From assembly GCF_035978755.1 (NCBI RefSeq), contig NZ_CP108414.1, positions 4,154,001-4,218,000 of the forward strand: a stretch of 64,000 nucleotides of DNA. Reading direction: 5' to 3'. The notes beneath the pieces were generated by a model. The model did not search any database. It was not told the origin of the DNA and saw only the letters and a list, made by a program, of their open reading frames with translations. Position 1 is the first letter of the stretch. Each line of letters opens with the position of its first letter. The stretch comes from Streptomyces sp. NBC_01298. GTDB lineage: Bacteria; Actinomycetota; Actinomycetes; Streptomycetales; Streptomycetaceae. Below, piece after piece: positions 31,283-41,187 of the stretch. Made by a program: the position numbers and the translations under genes.

Positions 31283-31383
31283 GCCCCCGAGCGTAGCCCT
31301 GCCGGGGACGGAACCCGGGAGCCCGGGCGCGGGGGGCCCGCGCGTCGGGCCCCGCCCCCGGGGCTGCGCCCGGACCCCCCTGG

Positions 31384-31419
31384 GGCTCCGCCCCGGTGGA
31401 CCCTACACCCCGGGACCTA
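31384..31419. other. attL of the integrated element
   Basis: The left half (GGCTCCGCCCCGGTG) is chromosomal intergenic repeat. GACCC is the shared core candidate, and TACACCCCGGGACCTA is one arm of the attP dyad. The exact crossover dinucleotide cannot be fixed from one integrated copy. Confidence 0.75.
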
Positions 31420-31447
31420 GAAAAACAGCAGGTCCGGGCATGCGAAA

Positions 31448-31478
31448 AGCCCCGCCCGACACGTGGTCGGACGGGGCT
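31448..31478 (-). terminator. Intrinsic terminator at left end of element
   Basis: On the minus strand AGCCCCGTCCGAC pairs with GTCGGGCGGGGCT, followed by TTTTC. It ends leftward transcription of the two small genes next to attL. Confidence 0.85.
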
Positions 31479-31498
31479 GCCTGCGGTCCGGTCAGTCG

Positions 31499-31702
31499 CT
31501 ACGGGGCACGGTGCACGTCTTCCGACGTCGGTCCCGCTCCGAGGGTCACAGCGTGCTCGGGGCATGCCCACAGCGTTGTACCGGGGCCGCTGGTGCTGTG
31601 GATCTCGCGGACCGCTACGGGCGCACTGGTCAGCGTTTTACAGCGGATGCACAGCGCGACGCGTTCAGGCAGTACGAGCGGGAACGGGTTCTCGGCGGTC
31701 AT
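31499..31702 (-). CDS. Small cysteine-containing protein, unknown function
   Basis: 67 residues. CIRC followed 30 residues later by CPEH gives a possible four-ligand zinc site (C-x2-C and C-x2-H). The start overlaps the stop of the gene upstream by 4 nt, so the two are co-translated. Close to the left end and followed by a terminator. No function assigned. Confidence 0.7.
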   Translation of the reverse strand: MTAENPFPLVLPERVALCIRCKTLTSAPVAVREIHSTSGPGTTLWACPEHAVTLGAGPTSEDVHRAP

Positions 31703-32052
31703 GTGCTGACCCCCGTTGCGGCGAACGCGGAGCGCGGGAAGGGTGCCCCCGCGTACGTGTACGGGTAGTCCACGCCGATGGCCGCGAATTCTGCCGCATA
31801 CCGCCGTTCCCGCTGGACCGGGGAGAGTACGAGGGTGGTTTCCGCAGTGGTCTCGGGGCGGAAGATCGCACGGGCCTGTGCGCTACTCGGGCCGATCCAC
31901 GGCCGTGCCGAGTAGTGCATGGGGGCAGGCTCGGGGCGGTAGCCGCTGGAGTGCTTCCCGGGCGTTCGTCGGCTCGGCTCCCATCGGAGCGCGCAGTAGA
32001 CCGCGAGGACGCACGACAGTCCTATGACCATGAAACCGATAGGCTCGCGCAT
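31699..32052 (-). CDS. Small single-pass membrane protein, unknown function
   Basis: 117 residues: an N-terminal hydrophobic helix (GFMVIGLSCVLAVYCAL) followed by a basic, proline-containing outer or inner region and a VQRERRYAAEFAAIGVDYPYTY stretch. Coupled by ATGA to the next gene. It is divergent from the GntR gene and shares the 134-bp promoter gap with it. Confidence 0.65.
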   Translation of the reverse strand: MREPIGFMVIGLSCVLAVYCALRWEPSRRTPGKHSSGYRPEPAPMHYSARPWIGPSSAQARAIFRPETTAETTLVLSPVQRERRYAAEFAAIGVDYPYTYAGAPFPRSAFAATGVST

Positions 32053-32146
32053 GTCGTTCAGCTCTCTTCTAGCTGTTCGGCGGAGCCCCGGCGGACCGTT
32101 ACAGCGGCCTTCCGGGGCGTTTTCGTTTCCCGAAGGTAGCCATCCT

Positions 32147-32187
32147 GTATCTACCTGTCTATAGCTGAATATGGACAGGCGTATCTA
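32147..32187. promoter_or_regulatory. Operator-like repeats upstream of GntR gene
   Basis: GTATCTA occurs as a direct repeat (32147-32153 and 32181-32187), bracketing the inverted repeat CCTGTC (32154-32159) and GACAGG (32174-32179). The site contains a TATAGC -10-like hexamer and abuts the first start codon of the GntR gene, fitting autorepression. Confidence 0.6.
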
Positions 32188-32465
32188 TGAGTGGCTGGCT
32201 GGTGTTGTGTAGCGTCCGACCTGTGGATTACGACCCAACCCGCCCGAAGTGGGTACAGATCGCGGAAACCGTCCGGGCGCGCATCGCGTCGGGCGAGTAC
32301 CCGCAGCACCATCTGATCTCTGAAGTTCAGTTGGCGGAGGAGTTCACGGTTACGCGCGTGACCATTCGCAAGATGACCGCCGCCCTGCGGGAGGAAGGTC
32401 TCATCGTGACCACACCAGGCATGGGTTCCTTCGTCGCGGATCAGGCGGCGAAAGGGAACGCTTGA
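32187..32465 (+). CDS. Small GntR-family winged-helix regulator
   Basis: 92 residues, consisting almost only of the GntR DNA-binding domain: VQIAETVRARIASGEYPQHHLISEVQLAEEF, then VTIRKMTAALREEGLIVTTPGMGSFV. There is no effector domain, as in the short GntR proteins of Streptomyces integrative elements and phages (KorSA-like role: element copy/transfer control). An alternative start is the GTG at 32223, which begins the conserved VDYDPTRPKW; the ATG puts the start right at the operator. Confidence 0.85.
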   Translation: MSGWLVLCSVRPVDYDPTRPKWVQIAETVRARIASGEYPQHHLISEVQLAEEFTVTRVTIRKMTAALREEGLIVTTPGMGSFVADQAAKGNA

Positions 32466-32511
32466 GCCCGCCTAGGCGCCGGATTGGCAGCTAAGCGGGC
32501 TCAGGGGTAAG

Positions 32512-32721
32512 TCAGGCTGCCGACGAGCAGCAATCCGCACAGGCAACGTTGCGGGCATGTCCGGTGACCGGGTCGACGATGACCGTCACGCCCTCGCCGT
32601 GCGGACAGACTCGGCGTCGGCGTTGGCTGGGGCTCTTCACGGTTCGGCATGTACCGAGCAGCGTGACCGCTTCGCCGTAGCGAGGGTCGGTCCACTGCAC
32701 CCTCGGCGCTTCTTCGCTCAA
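32512..32721 (-). CDS. Small cysteine/histidine-rich protein, unknown function
   Basis: 69 residues. CPHGEGVTVIVDPVTGHARNVACADCC suggests a small zinc-ribbon (C, H, C-x2-C). The leading VQWTDPRYGEAVTLLGTCRTV is typical of element-borne hypothetical proteins. Function unknown. Confidence 0.6.
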   Translation of the reverse strand: MSEEAPRVQWTDPRYGEAVTLLGTCRTVKSPSQRRRRVCPHGEGVTVIVDPVTGHARNVACADCCSSAA

Positions 32722-32800
32722 CGCATCCTCCTAGTGGCAGAACGTAGCCAACGTTAGCGGGTCACCACTTGCCCCTGCTGCGGTCCGCCCAGAGTCGTTG

Positions 32801-33292
32801 TCAGCTCGGCGGGGCCGCGCAGTTGGACCCTCCGTCCGTGCACTCGCTGTGCATGCAGTCAGCGGAGACCAGAAGCGCAGACTGCGCCTCTACGGTCCAC
32901 AGGTACTCGTCGGGTTCGTCTCCCGCTTCGCGGATGGCCTTGAGCGTGCGGGCGACGGTGGCCGTGTCGTGCTTCTTCGTCGCGGGGGTCTCAGGGACGT
33001 GGTGTACGAACCGGCCGAGCAGTCGGCACAGGTTGCCGTACGTCCTCGTGTCCGTGAGGAGCGCGTGCCACCCCTCGTCCACGAGCCGGGACGGGCGCAG
33101 TGCGAGACCCGGGGTCCGGTTACGTGCTGCCGCCGTAACGAACTTCACCGCCTCACGAACGATCCGCTCGGCCATGCCCTCCGGAAGGTGAGGGTTCGCC
33201 CGTTCGACGGTGCGCACGGCAATGGCGAACCCTGCGGACGGGAGGCGGACGGAGAGCGGTAACGCGGCCTCACGTACAGCAAGCTGTGACAT
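32801..33292 (-). CDS. DEGWHALL-motif (glycine-rich-domain-like) protein
   Basis: 163 residues. The core reads RLVDEGWHALLTDTRTY and then FVHHVPE, the pattern of the glycine-rich domain-containing protein family common in actinomycete mobile elements, where the conserved W-H and H-H may bind metal. Role unknown. A TGGGAGTT motif pair (33310-33351) lies in its leader. It is the last gene of a leftward run that begins near 33963. Confidence 0.7.
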   Translation of the reverse strand: MSQLAVREAALPLSVRLPSAGFAIAVRTVERANPHLPEGMAERIVREAVKFVTAAARNRTPGLALRPSRLVDEGWHALLTDTRTYGNLCRLLGRFVHHVPETPATKKHDTATVARTLKAIREAGDEPDEYLWTVEAQSALLVSADCMHSECTDGGSNCAAPPS

Positions 33293-33309
33293 ACGGGCTC
33301 CGTTTCTAA

Positions 33310-33351
33310 TGGGAGTTCTTTCGCTGCCCGACCCTCAGAGGGGTGGGAGTT
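33310..33351. promoter_or_regulatory. Pair of TGGGAGTT motifs
   Basis: TGGGAGTT at 33310-33317 and 33344-33351, 34 bp apart, in the leader of the DEGWHALL gene. The same octamer occurs as a pair only once more in the element, upstream of the capsid gene. Confidence 0.4.
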
Positions 33352-33422
33352 CTGGGGAGACCGAAACCGGGCGATGCCAGCGGCCGACCGGTGCATGACC
33401 AGGTCCCGGACGCTGGACACGA

Positions 33423-33551
33423 TCACGCGCCCCAGCCCTTGGCCACGATGCAGACGACGACCCCGACCCACACGACGGCCCCCAGGGTCACGGCTAAGGC
33501 GCTTCGCCGGCTGGACTGCGCGTGCGCCTGGTCCTCGTTGTCGTCGGTCAC
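33423..33551 (-). CDS. 42-residue single-helix membrane protein
   Basis: A GTG start overlapping the stop of the DUF7848-like gene (GTGA) opens a 42-codon frame: a charged head (TDDNEDQAHAQSSRRSA) followed by one hydrophobic helix (LAVTLGAVVWVGVVVCIVAKG). The coupling and the helix make it a credible gene despite its size. Phage-type elements often carry such helices (holin-like, or immunity/exclusion peptides), but no role can be assigned. Confidence 0.65.
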   Translation of the reverse strand: MTDDNEDQAHAQSSRRSALAVTLGAVVWVGVVVCIVAKGWGA

Positions 33552-33778
33552 TGGACGCGCTCCACTACTGCGACTTCCGAGAACTCCCGGACGAACGTCA
33601 TGTGGCCTGTCCGCCCTGTGTGCTTAATGCACATGTCGCTGCACACGTCGGCGTTCGGGGTCGGTTCCGCTGTCCAGTCGCACTCAAAGCTCAGACACCG
33701 CGCGGTCGCGGTCGTCTCGGCGGAGGGATGCCGCCGCATGCTGTAGGTGATGTAGCGCATCACCGCTTTCACGCTCAT
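33548..33778 (-). CDS. DUF7848-like small cysteine protein
   Basis: 76 residues: CLSFECDWTAEPTPNADVC, then CIKHTGRTGHMTFVREF. The C-x4-C and C-x3-C-x2-H spacing suggests a zinc fold. Similar proteins (MRYITYSMRRHPSAE-type start, HTGRTGH near the end) are common in Streptomyces mobile regions. Start and stop overlap both neighbours by 4 nt, so three genes are translated as one chain. Confidence 0.7.
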   Translation of the reverse strand: MSVKAVMRYITYSMRRHPSAETTATARCLSFECDWTAEPTPNADVCSDMCIKHTGRTGHMTFVREFSEVAVVERVQ

Positions 33779-33963
33779 GCCGCACTCCGGCCGTGAGGGT
33801 GGTTACGCAGTTCCGCGTTCTGCACAGCGACGGAGCACGGATCGCCAGCTTCCCGAGAGATCTCCCGCGCCGTGAACAGGGCGAGGCACACCCCGCATCC
33901 GGGCACTGGTACCGGTTCGAGCGGTTCTAGCCGAGCCGTTTGTTGCCGCGCTGCCGTCACCAT
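33775..33963 (-). CDS. Small protein with CGVC motif, unknown function
   Basis: 62 residues; ATG after AAGGGG. PVPGCGVCLALFTAREISREAG is the only clear feature and resembles a short zinc or redox knuckle. First gene of a coupled three-gene leftward set, divergent from the XRE-TPR gene across the 12-bp repeat cluster, so it is probably under the same operator. Confidence 0.6.
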   Translation of the reverse strand: MVTAARQQTARLEPLEPVPVPGCGVCLALFTAREISREAGDPCSVAVQNAELRNHPHGRSAA

Positions 33964-34022
33964 GCGCACCCCTTGCGTCGCGTTCGGTGCTCGGGATCGT
34001 CTCGCCACCGAGGAAGCGGGGC

Positions 34023-34097
34023 CTAGTGTGATCCGTAGTGGCAACCAGCTCGGAAGGCGAAGAATCTCTCGGTCTAGTGGCATCCCTAGTAGCAAGA
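34023..34097. promoter_or_regulatory. Four 12-bp operator repeats in two tandem pairs
   Basis: Consensus CTAGTGGCATCC. Copies are CTAGTGTGATCC (34023), GTAGTGGCAACC (34035), CTAGTGGCATCC (34074) and CTAGTAGCAAGA (34086). Each pair is head-to-tail without a gap, and the pairs are offset by 51 bp. They fill the divergent promoter between the XRE-TPR gene and the small-gene operon. An autoregulatory operator for the XRE protein is the simplest reading. Confidence 0.65.
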
Positions 34098-34104
34098 TGG
34101 GCGC

Positions 34105-35211
34105 ATGGACATCGGGGAACTGATCCGGGATCTCCGCAAGGCTCGCGGCTGGAGCCAAGGGCGGTTAGCTTCTGAGATCAACAGCGCGCACGGCACAACG
34201 CTGACGCGGGAGTACGTCAGCAACTGGGAGTGTTCCAAGGTCAGGCCAGGCCCGTTCTACCTTGCCGCGCTTTCTGCCGTTCTCGACGTTCCCCTAGCTG
34301 TCCTTGAAGGTGAAGTGGACCGACGCGAGTTCCTTACCGACATCGCCGGGGCTGCCATAGCTCCAGTGGTTGCCTCTGATCTGATCAGCGCAGGATTCGC
34401 CGCCCGACTACGGGGCGGGCCATCATCGGATGAGTGGGAAGCCAAGCTGACCACGTACGGCACTGAGTACATGTCGATGGGCGCTGCGGACATCCAGCGT
34501 CGGGTGTCCGGCGAACTCGTCACCGTGCAGCAACAACTGGAAGACCCCCGACTTTGGTCAGTGGCTTCCCGACTGATGACCCTGTACGCCAAGACGTTTC
34601 CGGGGTCGGACGGATCGAAGGCCGTTCACTGGTACCGCATGGCAGCTAAGGCTGCTGACGAGTCCGGAGACGACGAAGCGCGCGTTTGGGTACGTGGACG
34701 TGCAGCCATCGCCCTGGGGTACGAAGGGGCGTCGCTGGGCATCGCTGACGTACTGGCGGACCAAGCCTTGGCCATATCGGATCGACCTTCCCTAGGTCTC
34801 CTGAACGCCGTAATGGGCAAGGCACACGCCGCAGCACTTCGAGGTGACCGCGCCTCAGCACTGAAGCTCGCCGACGATGGCCGGCGCATCTTCGACAAGT
34901 CGGGGTCCTACGAACAGACCAGCGACTATGCCGTGCCCTGGTGGCGTATGAACGTCTTCCTGTCGCTCCTCCTAGCCCGCTTGGGCGACGAGCAGGGAGC
35001 CGTTCAGGCACAGGAAGCTGCGCGCCGCGAACTCCCGGCAGAGCTTCCCCGGTTCGCTACCCACCTTGAAATGCATAGAGGTCTGATGCTCGCACGCTCC
35101 GGCGATGTGTCCGGCGGGGTGACCTACGCACGGGGAGCGTTGGACGCGCTGCCGCCGGAGAAGCACTCCCTGACGCTCAGACTTCTGATGTCGGAAATCG
35201 AAGAGTCCTGA
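34105..35211 (+). CDS. XRE-family regulator with TPR-like helical domain
   Basis: 368 residues. N-terminal helix-turn-helix (IGELIRDLRKARGWSQGRLASEINSAHG, then YVSNWE) followed by a short linker VDRREFL, seen in many actinomycete TPR regulators, then about 250 residues of alpha-helical repeats (WYRMAAKAADESGD, ALAISDRPSLGLLNAVMGKAHAAALRG). Probably the element's main repressor/activator, sensing a peptide or protein. Divergent operator repeats lie directly upstream. Codon use is less GC3-biased than in chromosomal genes. Confidence 0.85.
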   Translation: MDIGELIRDLRKARGWSQGRLASEINSAHGTTLTREYVSNWECSKVRPGPFYLAALSAVLDVPLAVLEGEVDRREFLTDIAGAAIAPVVASDLISAGFAARLRGGPSSDEWEAKLTTYGTEYMSMGAADIQRRVSGELVTVQQQLEDPRLWSVASRLMTLYAKTFPGSDGSKAVHWYRMAAKAADESGDDEARVWVRGRAAIALGYEGASLGIADVLADQALAISDRPSLGLLNAVMGKAHAAALRGDRASALKLADDGRRIFDKSGSYEQTSDYAVPWWRMNVFLSLLLARLGDEQGAVQAQEAARRELPAELPRFATHLEMHRGLMLARSGDVSGGVTYARGALDALPPEKHSLTLRLLMSEIEES

Positions 35212-35227
35212 CGGCACGCACGACAAA

Positions 35228-35273
35228 AGCCCCCGCACCCGTCACCCGGCAAAGGGAGACGAGCACGGGGGCT
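35228..35273 (-). terminator. Terminator after capsid gene
   Basis: On the minus strand AGCCCCCG and CGGGGGCT close a stem with a 30-nt loop, followed by TTTTG. It separates the convergent XRE-TPR and capsid genes. Confidence 0.7.
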
Positions 35274-35284
35274 CAGGTACTTGA

Positions 35285-36220
35285 TCAGCCGTTCAGCACG
35301 TTGGTCAGTCGGGCTGCGGCCTTCCCGCCGAACAGGGCAAGACCACAGTAGAAGTCGATGCGGGTCCGGTAGACGGGCTTGTCGTGGGACTCACCAAGGT
35401 CGGTGGCCTGCACCCCGCCATGCGTCAGCCCGGTTACCCCCGCGTCGGCCTCAGTTGAGCCGAAGCGGACGGCGTAGATATCGCCGGTCTGCTTGCCGCC
35501 CGAACCGGTGGTCAGGGGCAATACATCGGTACCGTCCAGCTTCTGACCCGCGTCGAGCATCGGAATCCCGTTCCACATCACCGTCCGCTTACCGGCTATC
35601 TCGGATGTCAGCAGCTCGGAACCACCGAGCCGGCGGAACCCTGACGCGATCTTGGCCCGGACGTCGGCGTTCATGTAGAGAGCCCCGTTGGAACCGTTGA
35701 TGCCACGGACCCGCGCGGTCAGAGTGTCCAGCGCATCGAAGAACTCGTAGCCGTTGGCCACCGGACCGAGACCCTTGGCGTCGACAACCTGAGTGCCGAA
35801 CAGCCGCTTGCGCAGGCCGTCGAACCCCTTCGGGTCCACCATCACGTCACCGTTGAAAAACTGATCCGAGAAGTGAATGGAAGCAGCCTTGACCTTCATC
35901 ATGACCTGAATGGCTCGCTGGTCGTTCAGGTTTCCTCGGGTCTGAGCTATGAACTTGTCCACATCGGCGTCACCACCCAGGATGGCGAGCGTCTCGATCT
36001 TCTGATTAAGCGTTCCGGTGCTCTCCGGGTACGCCTCATTGACTGCGCGGAACGAGACGCCCGGGAGGGCGGACTCCTCGTTGTAGCGGTATGCGTTTCC
36101 GGCAATCTGCATCAGTGGGAGCCGGTCCAGAAGGGGAGACTCCTGGACGAACGTCTCAATAACGCCGCGCTGCAACTGATCCTGCGAGAGCTTGGCGGAT
36201 TCAGCAAGGGTGAGACTCAT
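35285..36220 (-). CDS. Phage major capsid protein (HK97-fold type)
   Basis: 311 residues with the pattern of actinophage major capsid proteins: SLTLAESAKLSQDQLQRGVI, ESPLLDRLPLMQIAGNAYRYN (N-arm to E-loop), a spine helix, NGALYMNADVRAKIASGFRRL, and a C-terminal QATDLGESHDKPVYRTRIDFYCGLAL. The start is the ATG 5 nt after GGAGAA; the ATG that overlaps this site is unlikely. It is the only recognisable structural phage gene here: no portal, scaffold/protease, terminase or tail genes flank it. It could make small satellite capsids, interfere with a helper phage capsid, or be an encapsulin-like shell. Confidence 0.88.
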   Translation of the reverse strand: MSLTLAESAKLSQDQLQRGVIETFVQESPLLDRLPLMQIAGNAYRYNEESALPGVSFRAVNEAYPESTGTLNQKIETLAILGGDADVDKFIAQTRGNLNDQRAIQVMMKVKAASIHFSDQFFNGDVMVDPKGFDGLRKRLFGTQVVDAKGLGPVANGYEFFDALDTLTARVRGINGSNGALYMNADVRAKIASGFRRLGGSELLTSEIAGKRTVMWNGIPMLDAGQKLDGTDVLPLTTGSGGKQTGDIYAVRFGSTEADAGVTGLTHGGVQATDLGESHDKPVYRTRIDFYCGLALFGGKAAARLTNVLNG

Positions 36221-36261
36221 ACATTTCTCCAAAATTGATTGCGTTGAAATTGACAGCGAAA

Positions 36262-36311
36262 TGGGAGTTCGATTTCGCTCCGCGAAAGCGGTCTAATTAG
36301 CCATGGGAGTT
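36262..36311. promoter_or_regulatory. Second pair of TGGGAGTT motifs, upstream of capsid gene
   Basis: TGGGAGTT at 36262-36269 and 36304-36311, 42 bp apart, in the gap between HNH and capsid genes. Same octamer and same orientation as the pair at 33310-33351. A shared leader, processing or regulator site is possible. Confidence 0.4.
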
Positions 36312-36362
36312 TTTTGCCTCCCTGCCGCTCGGGAAGGAGAGGGGTTGACCCCCTCCCCCTGG

Positions 36363-36758
36363 TCAGAACGGCGGGAGCTCGCGCGATTCGCGCCGCGAAC
36401 GAGCCTCAGCAGCGAATCCGCCCGGCTGATGCCTTGCTGTCTCGCGGTTGTGGCAGGCAACGCACAGCGGACGAAGATGACCCGCAGCATCAGGGTTCGC
36501 GTCACCCCGTGCGATCAACTCGCGTCGGGACAGCGGGAAGTGGTCCGCCACGTTCGCCAGACGGCCACACAGCACGCACCAGGGATGCCGGTACAGGTAG
36601 GCACGTCGGATGCGCTGCCAGCGCGTGTCATAGACAGCGCCACCACGTGAAGCACGGTCCGCGTTCGCCTCGCGCTCATGCTCGGCACAGCGTCCGCCGG
36701 CTCGGGTGAGCTCAGGGCAGCCGGGTACCGAGCACGGGGGACGGGGCTTACGGGGCAT
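36363..36758 (-). CDS. HNH endonuclease (phage type)
   Basis: 131 residues. Two N-terminal Cys pairs (CSVPGCPEL and CAEH), then RWQRIRRAYLYRHPWCVLCG, VADHFPLSRREL (first catalytic His in ADH) and GHLRPLCVACHNRETARH, the Cys-x2-Cys and His of the beta-beta-alpha-metal site. Such HNH proteins usually lie next to terminase and cos in phages and aid packaging. Its ribosome site GGAGGTGATC is a perfect anti-SD complement, 5 nt from the start, suggesting strong translation. Confidence 0.88.
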   Translation of the reverse strand: MPRKPRPPCSVPGCPELTRAGGRCAEHEREANADRASRGGAVYDTRWQRIRRAYLYRHPWCVLCGRLANVADHFPLSRRELIARGDANPDAAGHLRPLCVACHNRETARHQPGGFAAEARSRRESRELPPF

Positions 36759-36861
36759 GGGGGATCACCTCCAATCTGACTAGGGGTAGTGGCGGCGTGA
36801 CGTTCTGGCATGTCATGATCGGCGTCGAACTACGGCCATGACGCACAGCTAGGAGTCTGAG

Positions 36862-37026
36862 ATGTCCGAAGAGTTGGGCAAGATCGAGCCCGTTGTTTAC
36901 GGGGTTGCTGAAGACTTCCTCCTGCGCATTGCGGCGGAAGACGAGAAGGACACCGCCGACAAGGCCGCTGCAAAGGCTGCCGCTGAAACTCCAGCGAACG
37001 AGGACGAGCCCAACAAGTCCGCCTGA
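36862..37026 (+). CDS. Small acidic 54-residue protein, unknown function
   Basis: ATG 7 nt after AGGAG. The product starts SEELGKIEPVVYGVAEDFLL, then RIAAEDEKDTADKAAAKAAA, and ends EDEPNKSA: an amphipathic helix followed by an Ala/Lys/Glu-rich tail. It runs opposite to the two HNH genes between which it lies, so it has its own promoter in the 103-bp gap shared with the first HNH gene. The strong ribosome site and codon use support it. No homologous family is recognised. Confidence 0.65.
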   Translation: MSEELGKIEPVVYGVAEDFLLRIAAEDEKDTADKAAAKAAAETPANEDEPNKSA

Positions 37027-37249
37027 CGCAGCACAGTAAGGTCGAGCCGTCCGCCTCGGCGGATAGGGCCCGCTTCAGCGAGGACGAGCGACACACGGCC
37101 CTCGGATTCGTCCGGGGGCTTCGTCGTTACGCGGGGTGGGCGAAATCGAACCGCCTCTACCGCCCGGTTTCAGCACGGGGACCACCCGGGCCTACTCGGG
37201 GCAGAGTGCACGCCTACACCGCACCCCTTCCGCACCAGGACGAGCCGGG

Positions 37250-37618
37250 TTAGGGCCGGTCCGGGGCGGTGTCCCTGGGGGCAACAGCGGCCCCGAACTC
37301 AGTACGGGTCTTGAGCTGGTGGCACGGGTGGCACAAGACCTGCACGTTCCCTGCCACGTCCTCGCCACCGAGGGACAGCGGACGCACGTGGTCCACGTCC
37401 ACCCCGTTCGCGGGGAAGTCGTTCAGGCACCAGTCACACCATCCCGAGCCCCGGTCCGTCACGAGCCGGCGAAGCCTCGCAGCAGCGTCATAGCGGGCCG
37501 CACGGTGTCGGCTCCGGGCTCGTCGGGTGCGGACCGTTGTCCGTCCCTCGTAGGCCCCGTGGTGTGGCTTGCAGCGGCCCCGATGGGTCGCAGGCTCGGT
37601 GCAGTCGATACAGCGCAT
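37250..37618 (-). CDS. Second HNH endonuclease
   Basis: 122 residues: N-terminal zinc knuckle CIDCTEPATHRGRCKPHH, a basic linker ([15 protein letters not shown]), then CDWCLNDFPANGVDVDHVRPLSLGG (catalytic DH) and NVQVLCHPCHQLKTRTE. This is an HNH of the McrA-like, Cys4-His type. ATG is set by AGGGGGCAGCAC. Unrelated in linker to the first HNH protein. It lies immediately downstream of the tRNA-like block on the same strand. Confidence 0.88.
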   Translation of the reverse strand: MRCIDCTEPATHRGRCKPHHGAYEGRTTVRTRRARSRHRAARYDAAARLRRLVTDRGSGWCDWCLNDFPANGVDVDHVRPLSLGGEDVAGNVQVLCHPCHQLKTRTEFGAAVAPRDTAPDRP

Positions 37619-37649
37619 GTGCTGCCCCCTGATGGTCGTTGTTGATGCG

Positions 37650-37740
37650 TGCCCGCCCAAGGGCTCGAACCTCGGATCTCTGCGGCCGATGTCCCCTCGC
37701 GGGGCCGGTACCGCGCACCTCTGCCGTTGGGTCAGCGGGC
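37650..37740 (-). other. tRNA-like sequence 1
   Basis: Acceptor arm GCCCGCT/GGCGGGC (one G-U), D arm ACC...GGT with a GG-containing loop, and a perfect T arm CGAGG-TTCGAGC-CCTTG. The anticodon stem CGCGG/CCGCG closes an eight-base loop (TACCGGCC) with no U33, and the variable region is 23 nt. No CCA is encoded. Either a class II-like phage tRNA with an altered anticodon loop or a decoy/relic. It ends 30 bp upstream of an HNH start. Confidence 0.45.
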
Positions 37741-37853
37741 CGTAAGGGTGCTACCAGGTAGCGTCAGTTTTGGTTGACAAGCTCTGCGCTCGTCGTGCTC
37801 CTGGTGCTCGTTGTCGATCGGCGTAAGCCCTGGTCGGACCGTGCCGCAGTGCG

Positions 37854-37933
37854 TGTTCCCGACTGGATTCGAACCAGCATCGACCGCCGGATTGTTGTAA
37901 GACGGCCGTTCGCAACCAATGAACTGCGGGGAC
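37854..37933 (-). other. tRNA-like sequence 2
   Basis: Acceptor GTCCCCG/CGGGAAC with one mismatch, D arm GTTC-ATTGGTTGC-GAAC, T arm GCTGG-TTCGAAT-CCAGT. The anticodon region can pair only as GCCG/CGGC around a 13-nt loop, though CTTACAA inside it looks like a normal seven-base loop (anticodon UAC). Same strand as the first, 113 bp upstream. Not a standard functional tRNA as written. Confidence 0.45.
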
Positions 37934-37969
37934 GGGTTGCCCTCGCCGGCGAACCGGTCCAGACGAGTT

Positions 37970-38182
37970 GGGGACCACACGCGCTTACAACCCCTTTCGG
38001 CGCACCCCGGAGGGTGGGTTACCCATGGGCGGTGTGGTCCCCGCTCGCGCTGCCACACGTCGACTCCTGGCCACCCCGGTAACGCGGGGTGCGGTGTAGC
38101 ACGGGCAACGCTGTATCCGAGAGCGGGCACTCAGTCCGCCCGGTTCCCCCGTTGGGTGGGTGCGCGGTAGTCCCGCTCTCGG
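37970..38182. repeat. Structured block: two long-range inverted repeats and a hairpin
   Basis: GGGGACCACAC (37970-37980) matches GTGTGGTCCCC (38032-38042). CCGAGAGCGGG (38117-38127) matches CCCGCTCTCGG (38172-38182). Between them CACCCCG/CGGGGTG (38072-38091) forms a tight hairpin. All three stems are perfect. No credible ORF covers the block. It could be a structured RNA or a DNA site for replication or packaging. Confidence 0.6.
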
Positions 38183-38187
38183 AAGTA

Positions 38188-38394
38188 GTGGAGGGCGAAG
38201 GTTTCCCGCGTCCGTCTGGACTGTTCGGTCCCTTGCTTCCCCAGTAGTGGAGGGCGAAGGTTTCCAGTGCCGCTCGGACACTCGAACCGCTCGCTCTCTC
38301 CCCAGCTGTGGAGGGCGAAGGTTTCCCGCGTCCATCCGGACGAGCGGGCCGTTCACTCTCTCCCCACAGTGGAGGGCGGAGGTTTCCCGCGTCC
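38188..38394. repeat. Four direct repeats spaced 59-61 bp
   Basis: GTGGAGGGCGAAGGTTTCC starts at 38188, 38247, 38308 and (one base changed) 38369. Three copies extend to CCGCGTCC. The intervening 33-42 bp share TCTCTCCCCAG and a CGGAC element, so these are diverged 60-bp tandem units rather than unique spacers. The next 80 bp contain an AT-rich patch (TTCTTTCTATTTTTTCTATG, 38434-38453), rare in this genome. Origin-like or cos/pac-like layout. Confidence 0.7.
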
Positions 38395-38585
38395 GAAGAG
38401 GTGACGCGGTGCCGAAGGAGACCCTGGTTCTCTTTCTTTCTATTTTTTCTATGTGTTTCTAAAAAATGGTTGAACTCAACACCCCAACACCAACCGCTTC
38501 GCTGTAGAGCCGAGAGCTCCAAGCCCGAGGGCAGCCAGCGAGGGGGCACGAGGGGCCCTGTACGCCCGTCTGCGGACATGGGAAA

Positions 38586-38632
38586 GCCCCGGCGGTCCCG
38601 AGGGATGCCGGGGCGGTCCCGAGGGATGCCGG
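38586..38632 (-). terminator. Terminator and 21-bp duplication after coiled-coil gene
   Basis: GCCCCGGC and GCCGGGGC form the stem, followed on the minus strand by TTT. The 21-bp unit starting GGCGGTCCCGAGGGATGCC is duplicated in tandem (38591 and 38612), doubling the hairpin. Confidence 0.7.
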
Positions 38633-38651
38633 GGCGGTGCGGCTCGGCTGA

Positions 38652-38873
38652 TTACTCGGTGCCCTCCGTGGCCAGACTCATGCGGGCGGCTCGCAGGTCT
38701 CGATTCACTTCTTCGATCTTCTTGTCACATGTTTTAATTTCATCCTCTAGCCTAGCCACCTCTGCGGAATTTCCGCGTCGGCTTTCGTTCTTCAGCGCAT
38801 CGGCTAGCTCTTTCCTCTCATGCTGGAGGGTTGAGAGCCTATGGGTGGCTTCTGCGACTTTTTCGTCGCTCAT
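38652..38873 (-). CDS. Small coiled-coil protein
   Basis: 73 residues, nearly all predicted helix with heptad pattern (HRLSTLQHERKELADALKN, VARLEDEIKTCDKKIEEVNR). ATG follows AAAGGGGAACAA. Could be a recombination directionality factor, a dimeric adaptor or a capsid-size factor; none can be shown. Ends at a duplicated hairpin. Nearest gene to the integrase on its 3' side. Confidence 0.75.
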   Translation of the reverse strand: MSDEKVAEATHRLSTLQHERKELADALKNESRRGNSAEVARLEDEIKTCDKKIEEVNRDLRAARMSLATEGTE

Positions 38874-38966
38874 TTGTTCCCCTTTGAGGCGTAGGACTGT
38901 ATAGGTCGCCAAGATCATAGTCAGCGCGAATGTGGCGTGTGGCGGTTCTGCGCAAGTTGGCAGCAG

Positions 38967-38999
38967 AAAGCCCCGGCGGTCCGAAGGGACTACCGGGGC
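38967..38999 (-). terminator. Intrinsic terminator
   Basis: GCCCCGG/CCGGGGC stem with inner GGTCC/GGGACT pairing, then TTTC on the minus strand. It is the second terminator in a row for leftward transcription, so something short may be transcribed between it and the one after the integrase. Confidence 0.7.
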
Positions 39000-39110
39000 G
39001 AGGCGGGCTGGTCGTACTGCTTCCAGGACGAACCTGTAAGGCACCAGCCCTAGCCCGCACACCCATGTCGGCGCGGGGTGCGAAGAGCGTACCGGGCCGC
39101 GAGGGGCACG
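39000..39110 (-). ncRNA. Possible small structured RNA between two terminators
   Basis: No convincing ORF. On the minus strand GGGCTGGT (39043-39050) pairs with ACCAGCCC (39005-39012), enclosing CAGG-TTCGT-CCTG, and GCGGGC/GCCCGC extends the outer stem. It is bounded by integrase and its terminator on the right and another terminator on the left. Expression is unproven. Confidence 0.3.
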
Positions 39111-39113
39111 CAG

Positions 39114-39147
39114 AAAGCCCCGGATGATCACGGGGGCCGTCCGGGGC
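39114..39147 (-). terminator. Terminator after integrase
   Basis: GCCCCGG and CCGGGGC close a 17-nt loop; TTTC follows on the minus strand. It lies 22 bp after the integrase stop. Confidence 0.75.
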
Positions 39148-39168
39148 TGTTCTGTCCTTACAGGGCCG

Positions 39169-40842
39169 CTAGGCGGCTTGCTCGAACCCGTCTGCGTCGG
39201 GCTCGGCACCCTCGGGGGTGGCCCATGTGATGGTGACGCGCTTCATCCCGTCGAAGCGCCGTCCGCGCCCCGGAGACTTCGTCACGGTCACGGTGTCTAT
39301 AGCGAGTCCGAGTAGGTCGCGCTGCATGCTCGCGTTGGCGGTGTTCCAGTACTTCTCACCGTTGCCGTTCAGCAGGAACGAGAGAGATACGGGACCGGTG
39401 TTGCCGACGAGCTCGGCGAGCGCGGTCTCAGCCTTGCTGATCCGTGCTTCGGCAGCGTTCTTGTGCGGGATGCGGTACCGGGCGGAGCGGCCCGTATAGA
39501 AGTCGTTCGCGTCGTCCGCGTGGAACTTGTCGAGCTTGGCTTGTGCGGCTTTCAGCTCGGCGCGTGCGTCCCTGATGACCTGTGTCTCCTCGGGGCGGGT
39601 AATGGCCTGCCACCGTTCGGCTACGGCAACCAACAGCGGGTCCTCATCGTCAGTGACTGCGAGCCGCTCGGACCACGTTTGCACCACGTACTTTTCGACG
39701 GCCTTGCGGGTGACGAACGCGGGATCGGCGCACGCTTCGGCTCCGTCGCCGTAGCGGGTGCAGGCGTACGAGTCCCCTTCCAACGTCATGGCGCTGCCAC
39801 AGGATGCGCATCGCATGCGGCTGGTCAGTGCTCGGACCGCGCGGCCCGGAGTCGGGGCAGCCTTGCTGATGGTCTGGTTCCCGGACAGCACACGGCGGGC
39901 ACGCTCGGCGAGCTCGGACGGGATCATGTTCGGCAACGTCTCGTCCGTGACCACGCGCACCCGCTCGCCCTCGTTGTTCAGGAACGGCACGCGGTCACGG
40001 TGCGCCTTACCGCCGGGGCAGTGCGTAAGCCACCCCTCATATACGGGGTGGATGATGATCGCCCGCACCGCGTCGGCCCGCCACGGGACCCCGGTACCGG
40101 TCCGCAGACCCTCACTGTTCAGCTTCCGGGTCAGCGCGCGGGACGACATGCCCTCGCCAATGGCCTTGAATACGCGCTGGACGATCTCCCACGGGGTGAC
40201 TTCCCGCTTGTCGGCAACGGTGCACATGTACGGGGTGAGATCCGGGATCAGCTTCCGCGTACCGGGGACCGCAACCAGCCCGAAGGGTGCTTTGGACAGC
40301 CACTTGCCCTCGGTGCGCTGCCGAGACTTTGTGCCCCGCACGTTGTAGCTCAGCCGCTGTGAGTACTCGCGCGCGTTCTCGGCCCGGTCGATGATCCATC
40401 GGCGATCCCGCTCGTCCAGCGAGTCGAGACGCTCGTAGTCGAAGATCACGCGAGCCTTGCCGAGGATCGGCACTACCGCCTCAGCACCCTTGCGGCTGAA
40501 GCGGTCGAGCGCGTAGCACCAGAGCGCGGGCACTTCGCCGGCGAGGACTGCGGTCATGGCTGCGTCGTACTTCGGGCGCTGTACGTCCGACCAGGCGGAC
40601 AGGTTCTCGCGCCATATCTTTCGCACGCAGTACCCGTGCTCGTCTGCCCATGCCCGGCCCCGGTCCTCCTGCGCCCGGATGGACAGAGCGCGCTCGCCCT
40701 CGCGGACGATCTTCGACTTACGGAGGAGGAGGTCTACATACGGTCGTCCGTGGCACGGGCACAGTCCGTCAGTAGTCTTGTTCATGCCCCTTGTGGGGGG
40801 CAGTTCTTGCCTAGCAGAACGCGCGAGGGTGCTCGTAGACAT
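39169..40842 (-). CDS. Large serine recombinase (integrase)
   Basis: 557 residues. The N-terminal resolvase domain has LLLRKSKIV (catalytic Ser43), then LSIRAQED, ALWCYALDRFSRKG and RWIIDRAENAREYS. A recombinase domain follows (LTRKLNSEGLRTGTGVPW), then a zinc ribbon (CASCGSAM and later CTR, C) and a coiled coil near 430-480. ATG is chosen after AAAGG. It is transcribed inward from the right end, 42 bp from the attP arm, the usual place. It should integrate into the dispersed intergenic repeat and, with an unidentified directionality factor, excise. Confidence 0.93.
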   Translation of the reverse strand: MSTSTLARSARQELPPTRGMNKTTDGLCPCHGRPYVDLLLRKSKIVREGERALSIRAQEDRGRAWADEHGYCVRKIWRENLSAWSDVQRPKYDAAMTAVLAGEVPALWCYALDRFSRKGAEAVVPILGKARVIFDYERLDSLDERDRRWIIDRAENAREYSQRLSYNVRGTKSRQRTEGKWLSKAPFGLVAVPGTRKLIPDLTPYMCTVADKREVTPWEIVQRVFKAIGEGMSSRALTRKLNSEGLRTGTGVPWRADAVRAIIIHPVYEGWLTHCPGGKAHRDRVPFLNNEGERVRVVTDETLPNMIPSELAERARRVLSGNQTISKAAPTPGRAVRALTSRMRCASCGSAMTLEGDSYACTRYGDGAEACADPAFVTRKAVEKYVVQTWSERLAVTDDEDPLLVAVAERWQAITRPEETQVIRDARAELKAAQAKLDKFHADDANDFYTGRSARYRIPHKNAAEARISKAETALAELVGNTGPVSLSFLLNGNGEKYWNTANASMQRDLLGLAIDTVTVTKSPGRGRRFDGMKRVTITWATPEGAEPDADGFEQAA

Positions 40843-40883
40843 GCGAAAGCCTTTGTGACCTGCGGAAACGGCCCGCTACCGAG

Positions 40884-40925
40884 TAGGACCCAGGGTGTTG
40901 GTTCCACTCCAGACCCCGCGCCTCA
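40884..40925. other. attR of the integrated element
   Basis: TAGGACCCAGGGTGT is the attP arm, followed by GACCC (40912-40916) and then chromosomal CGCGCCTCACACGCC. The arm mirrors the one in attL, as expected when one attP was split by integration. Confidence 0.75.
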
Positions 40926-40936
40926 CACGCCGGCGA

Positions 40937-40954
40937 GGCTGGATTTTTCCAGCC
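40937..40954. terminator. Short hairpin right of attR
   Basis: GGCTGGA and TCCAGCC around TTTT. It is part of the chromosomal dispersed repeat unit into which the element inserted. The rest of the stretch up to 41187 holds more of the same GC-rich repeat (GTCCGGCGTTTGAGG) and no gene that I can support. Confidence 0.5.
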
Positions 40955-41187
40955 CGTCCGGCGTTTGAGGACCGGGTCCGGGCAGAGCCCGGGGAACAGG
41001 CGAAGGGCGGGTAGGGGACAGCCCCGCAGGGCAGCCGGGCCACACCCCCGGGCCGGGCCTCAGGTGTTCTTCAGGCTTGGCCCGATCTATGGCGCCGTAG
41101 GCCGCCAGCGCCGATCATCGGCCCGACGGGCCGGTTCCGGCACCGTCCCGGCAGGCTGCCGGCACCCACCGGAAGGCGGACACACCC

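Follow-up and report, generated by a model that had tools for sequence, protein, structure and literature searches.

In a 64,000-nucleotide stretch of the genome of Streptomyces sp. NBC_01298 (genome G000, 9.7 Mb; contig NZ_CP108414.1, positions 4,154,001 to 4,218,000; hereafter the window), we analysed a 9.5-kb insertion at window positions 31396-40911, which is probably a satellite that depends on temperate cos phages of the Rowa type. The element carries a full major capsid protein (MCP) gene, two HNH endonuclease genes, regulators and an integrase gene, a content proposed in a sequence-only reading of this DNA and confirmed here by PHROG and Pfam matches. The satellite interpretation given in that reading gains strong support: such elements form a conserved family, they have a phage-type cos site, no other virion genes were found (some members have a small terminase subunit, TerS), and the genome also holds a helper-type prophage that shares cos and integrase DNA with the element. 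The best reading of these data is that the elements are cos-packaged satellites that would borrow the terminase, portal, scaffold and tails of a helper and bring their own coat protein, which probably serves small or hybrid shells. Among the three functions that the sequence-only reading offered for the capsid gene, an own shell combined with borrowed terminase and tails is the favoured one.

The insertion is real because, in a relative (G012, locus L127), the FUSC side (window ~31284) and the tatA side (window ~41044) nearly abut. The element encodes its own large serine integrase (39169..40842, minus strand; PHROG 95), and sequence comparison gave it the same ends as the 39.8-kb resident prophage. 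At the left end (attL region, 31396..31484), the phage-side DNA is near-identical to the resident prophage end, and the right end (attR region, 40880..40911) adjoins a dispersed intergenic repeat, the crossover being approximate at both. This repeat (31330-31396 and 40912-41000) flanks element and prophage alike. It is present in 82 genome copies (at most 3 mismatches; none for the reversed control), and since it stands at the borders of both, many landing sites in the genome may be open to the serine integrase. A tRNA-Gly called by ARAGORN at 31293 was rejected as the integration target, given that the ends border the dispersed repeat; the call, in GC-rich DNA between genes, is probably spurious. 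The 9,458-bp contig L040 was checked for a circular or free form and has no end overlap. Shared-DNA spans were 8.4-9.8 kb in 13 of 14 loci, with L038 (5.7 kb) set aside, which is weak evidence of a uniform size since the script covered only 5.5 kb to the left and 6.5 kb to the right of the MCP gene and required colinearity.

Proteins of phage Rowa and of the resident prophage were used as tblastn probes (E<=1e-4) for other virion genes, with flanks of up to 10 kb per side and a 9.5-kb contig for L040. Inside the window element, no match was found to their terminase, portal, protease, scaffold, connector or tail proteins, and the one other probe match in the window lies outside it. Across 12 loci (the window and L032-L042), the large terminase subunit (TerL), portal, protease, scaffold, connector and tail proteins gave no match except for 19 residues of tape measure about 8 kb from the MCP gene in L033. 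The same probes were negative in L107 and L108 and, at E<=1e-5, in L173, L174, L175 and L178, which have long flanks and come from the second search described below; they were positive in the full phages L043, L044, L046 and L177. A family scan then covered, one by one, 119 open reading frames (ORFs) of at least 250 aa from 17 loci (the window, L032-L042, L107, L108, L173, L174 and L175). Its complete Pfam list of 22 families comprises 17 MCPs, 17 resolvase-type recombinases, helix-turn-helix (HTH) proteins and a few enzymes, with no terminase, portal, tail or replication family, and the PHROG scan had the same outcome among the families listed (25 of 31). The MCP is the only virion family listed for these long ORFs, and the complete Pfam list places none of the window element's own four in a family of terminases, portals, proteases, scaffolds, connectors or tail proteins. 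Adapters are small proteins, and their absence is a probe result. Probes and Pfam scan bear out the lack of portal, terminase and tail genes claimed in the sequence-only reading: the complete virion gene set is wanting, as expected of a satellite, and the late-gene set of an intact prophage was not found. No replication family matched convincingly among ten window ORFs (weak HTH overlaps only), and no Pri/Rep module of the type carried by phage-inducible chromosomal islands (PICIs) was found; this negative covers the 119 long ORFs and the ten window ORFs, smaller ORFs being mostly outside the scan.

When read from a TTG start further upstream, the MCP (311 aa; 35285..36220, minus strand) matches Pfam GP7 (E=9e-19) and the 'major head protein' family PHROG 212 (E=5e-86). 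The solved structures that profile comparison relates to it are those of phage capsid proteins. These matches, together with the position of the gene within an integrase-HNH-cos(-TerS) module, disfavour the encapsulin-like compartment suggested in the sequence-only reading, in which the MCP would form an empty protein shell around cellular cargo. Foldseek, run on a low-confidence model of the MCP, ranks encapsulins first (TM 0.34-0.40), and Pfam gives an SrpI-like match that is weak (E=0.042; 13.3 bits, below the cut-off of 22.8); no encapsulin family match above the cut-off was found, and we give this explanation hardly any credence. Among the best protein-database matches, 66 of 68 are exactly 311 aa long, and the genomic context is known for only part of these 66; 45 of the next 52 matches have 314-316 aa, and one phage-like match also has 311. 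Two proteins among these 52, P0075 and P0077 (80-81% over 78% of the query), are probably pieces of the satellite type. In a tree of 75 of 133 rows, made by a quick method with satellite and phage rows thinned by about half and four truncated rows omitted, the satellite MCPs formed a single clade apart from the phage MCPs (SH-aLRT 91), with P0069 and P0080 as its sister (support 99). The median dN/dS was 0.10 (range 0.06-0.16; 78 pairs of 13 genes), a rough figure given far-diverged synonymous sites, and these comparisons indicate that the satellite MCP is under purifying selection. Twelve of 25 satellite-specific sites fall in the 111-residue A-domain, as drawn on a low-confidence AlphaFold model, with no clear enrichment; the model was too poor for mapping size determinants and was dropped for that use. 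Separately, the 40.9-kb plasmid record NC_017833.1 (Streptomyces sp. FR1) encodes an MCP of 64% identity and may represent a helper-type phage-plasmid.

A scan in which each species was represented by one genome yielded 24 MCP loci. In 15 of them the MCP identity is at least 75%, four of these matches being partial, and in the other 9 it is 54-65%. Within the flanks covered, the 15 gave no probe match to TerL, portal, protease, scaffold, connector or tail proteins apart from the tape-measure piece in L033, whereas the Streptomyces loci with 62-65% identity (L043, L044 and L046) are ordinary phages. A second search, of 394 family members and run after the pattern was noticed, added a 94% MCP relative (G706), loci at 75-79% in another genus and a 64% match, L177, which is a complete Rowa-like phage. 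The other genus is probably Kitasatospora because named Kitasatospora proteins and locus L050 fall in this group. One further locus, L176, begins 1.4 kb beyond its MCP. The gene arrangement that the sequence-only reading had proposed to look for elsewhere does recur: a lone MCP is found in many genomes, with close kin in the same bacterial family.

The conserved block between the HNH1 and MCP genes is identified as the cos site by comparison with Rowa. Its core, CGGCAGGGAGGCAAAAAACT (36308..36327, minus strand), equals the joined genome ends of the phage, whose record ends in ...CTCGGCAGGGA (CGGCAGGGA at the junction) and starts with GGCAAAAACC..., and it has few changes in the other satellites and phages of the set. 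We assume here that the record ends are the virion DNA ends, a point on which the record is silent. A 39-base pattern over cos (at most 3 mismatches) has exactly two sites in the 9.7-Mb genome, one in the prophage and one in the element, and none for the reversed control, so the element carries the helper packaging signal as a sequence match. The cosB-like right arm (36278..36307, minus strand) is identical to that of the resident prophage, and the identity stops at its edge. On the other side, the adjoining HNH1 endonuclease (36363..36758, minus strand; PHROG 144) has 100% aa identity to the prophage protein. Since an HNH nuclease beside terminase and cos is described in HK97 as working with terminase in cos cleavage (PMC10448857), the location of HNH1 suggests that it has a role in packaging.

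In four loci (L034, L035, L040 and L108), a terS gene lies between cos and the MCP gene. Its product resembles the TerS of Rowa at 56-59% and that of the prophage type (prophage, L044 and L046) at 38-44%, and the cosB of these loci contains CCGG.GCTG and TTTTTGG; the ten first-set loci without TerS have the helper-type cosB CATGGCT.AT. TerS and cosB types thus agreed in every one of the 14 first-set loci (4 TerS-bearing and 10 TerS-less) and in all four scorable later loci, where L174 has TerS and a CCGGGGCTG arm, and L173, L175 and L178 have no TerS and helper-like arms with one or two motif changes; L176 could not be scored. In total, 5 of 18 scored members carry TerS, all five with a changed cosB, counts in which related members are non-independent observations. 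This split fits TerS-guided self-packaging in some members. As a side observation, S. melanogenes JCM 4398 harbours two family satellites in one genome (L034 and L035), both with TerS.

The genome encodes a second MCP, 62% identical to the first, at G000:C1:3410493, within a Rowa-type prophage of ~39.8 kb (G000:C1:~3381660-3421440) that carries genes for TerS, TerL, portal, protease, scaffold, head-tail adaptor and tape measure and is likely the helper of the element. Element and prophage are 91.7% identical over 37285-40982, 96.7% over 36278-37273 and 86-93% at the left end, the identity ending just beyond HNH1, at the distal edge of the cos block. The same side, from integrase to cos, resembles the resident helper in all three genomes that have one: L036 matches its own helper at 87.1 and 97.1%, and L042 at 88.2, 85.4 and 89.3%, with stretches of 74-80% in between. 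Cross-genome comparison gave 70-74% for the HNH1-cos block and 78-79% for the integrase, with the exception of L033, which is 87.7% like the L042 helper in HNH1-cos; L033 and L042 are 93% alike over ~5.6 kb. The aa identity between satellite and own-helper MCPs is 62.1% (window), 67.3% (L036) and 66.5% (L042). An integrase-to-cos side at 87-97% DNA identity (patchier in one pair) versus MCPs at 62-67% aa identity points to a packaging end that was exchanged with the helper and a coat protein that was kept.

These comparisons also bear on the possibility that the element is a deletion remnant, a Rowa-type prophage that lost its late genes and retained a capsid gene without a role, which the sequence-only reading had named as its own refutation. 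One part of that scenario stands, as the gene order is that of a Rowa-type prophage minus head and tail genes and both ends match the prophage; several relatives are, besides, visibly decayed. The other part fails: the MCP differs from that of the prophage (62% aa identity) and belongs to a separate, conserved clade with the same lone arrangement in many genomes, 13 of 14 first-set MCPs are intact with the low median dN/dS given above, and cos is retained and matches that of co-resident helpers. A remnant is therefore very improbable, and sequence comparison shows that the elements form a conserved family and that this one is not a one-off prophage remnant.

How such a satellite might work can be proposed in outline. 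The element would integrate and excise by its own serine integrase, as its gene and ends suggest, and, once a helper is induced or enters, would rely on enzymes of the helper or host for its replication, in keeping with the failure to find a replication gene in it. The helper terminase, with the HNH nuclease alongside, would then cut and package element DNA at the matching cos; in members with TerS, the own TerS may mark the own DNA via the changed cosB with which it co-varies. With portal, scaffold and protease supplied by the helper, the element MCP, either by itself or together with helper MCP, would build a head fit for ~9-10 kb of DNA. Helper tails would join this head, and helper yield would drop as a side effect. 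In its specific form, this 'coat-swap' model holds that a full-length MCP of a separate lineage replaces the helper coat on helper portal, scaffold and protease to give a smaller, T=3-like shell, that the integrase-to-cos end is repeatedly exchanged with the resident helper, and that some lineages have their own TerS and private cosB; we would give it roughly even chances of being right. The genome sizes have a ratio of 9.5/39.8 kb = 0.24, and by volume scaling a T=3 shell has ~0.28 of the volume of an assumed T=7 helper head. Four linked copies would also fit a normal head, so size alone decides nothing.

The latter arrangement belongs to an alternative in which satellite DNA travels in unchanged helper heads and the MCP mainly acts as a weapon that poisons helper head assembly. 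About four head-to-tail copies (4 x 9.5 = 38 kb) would fit in place of the ~39.8-kb prophage, some satellites are reported to put several copies into helper heads that are not resized (PMC11389934), and the coat homologue Ccm of the satellite SaPIbov5 is described as blocking its helper (PMC5052747). A full-length HK97-type MCP of constant length and low dN/dS seems, however, more than a poison needs, and we judge this alternative unlikely as the main role. The poisoning of helper capsids proposed in the sequence-only reading is compatible with an own shell, given that Ccm is reported to do both (PMC5052747).

Several observations weigh against the interpretation of the element as a cos-packaged satellite that supplies its own coat protein. 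In six MCP loci from outside Streptomyces (L045, L047, L048, L049, L051 and L053), TerL and portal went undetected by the probes; because of these distant loci, probes alone are insufficient for absence and the ORF family scans were added. Partial or broken MCPs are common (L041, L050, L052, L054, L055, L109 and L178), an IMG/VR scan with six peptide patterns retrieved no satellite-type MCP (best match 65% at full length, 70% over a 177-residue piece), and phage records gave no megablast match to the element. With a pLDDT of 58, the structure prediction for the MCP is poor and uninformative on shell size. Of the 20 satellite-genome handles (19 distinct genomes, the places of G337 and G406 being the same), only 3 have a helper-type TerL of at least 88% identity, namely G000, G405 (L036) and G408 (L042). 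The sister-type locus L110 (G192), assigned to the P0069 type by length and identity, has TerS yet a helper-like arm, and its TerS is nearer the prophage type (52%); its order, MCP - HNH1 - cos - TerS, is unlike that of other members, and the probes found no TerL or portal in it. Finally, the portal gene of the resident prophage (L103) is in two frames near residue 118, so the resident helper is possibly defective. The frame change could be decay or a programmed event; the portals of the L036 and L042 helpers matched in one stretch. The portal of L046 changes frame near the same place as that of the resident prophage, and those of L044, L160 and L161 match in one stretch.

The nearest precedent for such a satellite is Ccm of SaPIbov5, a satellite described as having a cos site and this coat homologue, which builds the pentamers in a small T=4 shell and is a block to the helper (PMC5052747, PMC8569155). 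Both are integrated satellites with a helper-like cos, one MCP homologue and a small genome (~14 kb for SaPIbov5, with 42-45-kb helpers). Ccm, however, is reported to be 19% identical to the helper coat in the modelled domain and to form pentamers only, being unable to replace that coat, whereas the Streptomyces MCP is full length and 62-67% identical to helper MCPs (three pairs), and its helpers have a scaffold gene of their own. Further differences of the Streptomyces element are its HNH genes beside cos, a TerS in some members, its serine integrase and the lack of a recognised replication module. Capsid-forming PICIs (cfPICIs) are likewise satellites with their own capsid gene, but their signature genes are described as including terminase, prohead protease and head-tail adapter (PMC10448857), none of which was found here except TerS in some members. 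MulchRoom and MiniFlayer are helper-dependent Streptomyces satellites with capsid genes, MulchRoom having an integrase and a GntR-like protein; they are reported to have genes for both terminase subunits, portal, MCP, scaffold and adapter as well as direct terminal repeats, and to use large helpers presumed virulent (PMC10690885). In the elements studied here, TerL, portal, scaffold and adapter were not found with the MCP. Rowa-type phages (Rowa and the resident prophage) share the cos core, HNH, serine integrase and MCP family, and differ in being complete ~40-kb phages whose MCPs are 62-67% identical to those of neighbouring satellites. Putative Escherichia coli satellites with an MCP and no terminase, protease or adapter genes have also been described, and these are enterobacterial, of RepA type, with decoration, tape-measure and baseplate genes beside the MCP (PMC10448857). 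A survey of actinobacterial prophages remarks, without validation, that elements below 15 kb could be satellites (PMC10023795). In searches of an open-access library, we found no description of Streptomyces satellites with MCP only or MCP plus TerS, many subscription papers and preprints being outside this coverage.

If this interpretation is correct, Streptomyces and near kin harbour satellites that searches for complete head modules would overlook because they have one head gene only. The satellites would also offer a clean test of the share of the coat protein in head formation, with the same scaffold and portal, coats 62-67% identical and two genome sizes. In three natural pairs, DNA exchange would have kept the packaging signal of the satellite similar to that of its helper, and the family would be divided by nature into members with borrowed and members with private TerS/cosB pairs. 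Of 392 genomes sampled from the genus, 7 (G000, G025, G162, G219, G225, G241 and G337) have a satellite-type MCP (at least 75%), and 7, G000 among them, have a helper-type TerL at E<=1e-150; satellite-genome and TerL genome sets overlap, and the counts are raw.

The remaining genes of the element show varying degrees of conservation. From the left end, they comprise a conserved small terminal ORF (31699..32052, minus strand; 36-60% identity in other satellites, in a region 86% identical in DNA to the prophage end), a GntR-type HTH regulator (32187..32465, plus strand) whose ORF cluster covers 12 of 20 loci clustered, an ORF of no assigned function (32801..33292, minus strand) that is 45% identical to an ORF of the Kitasatospora locus L050, a DUF7848 protein assigned by family match (33548..33778, minus strand), a small ORF that has counterparts in three further satellite loci (33775..34158, minus strand) and an XRE-type HTH regulator of 368 aa, also a family match (34105..35211, plus strand). 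In the place of the latter, other members have HTH/DUF5753, DUF6879 or different genes. The variable genes after the MCP (L032:11330-12730, L035:11025-12380 and L040:5511-6851) include DUF6879 and HTH/DUF5753 in some members, and others have there a ~450-aa protein without a Pfam or PADLOC match. As to defence cargo, PADLOC returned only weak HTH and capH-type matches. Beyond HNH1 lie a small ORF with 99% aa identity to the resident prophage (36830..37096, minus strand), the HNH2 endonuclease (37250..37660, minus strand; PHROG 144), which is 55% identical in aa to the prophage copy over 118 residues, and, next to the integrase gene, a 185-aa ORF with 99% aa identity to the prophage (38652..39209, minus strand). 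Between the latter two, four ~33-nt repeats with a spacing of 59-61 nt and the core GTGGAGGGCGAAGGTTTCC (38181..38394) have related copies in the prophage (C1:~3418699-3418906) and could be binding sites for replication or regulation.

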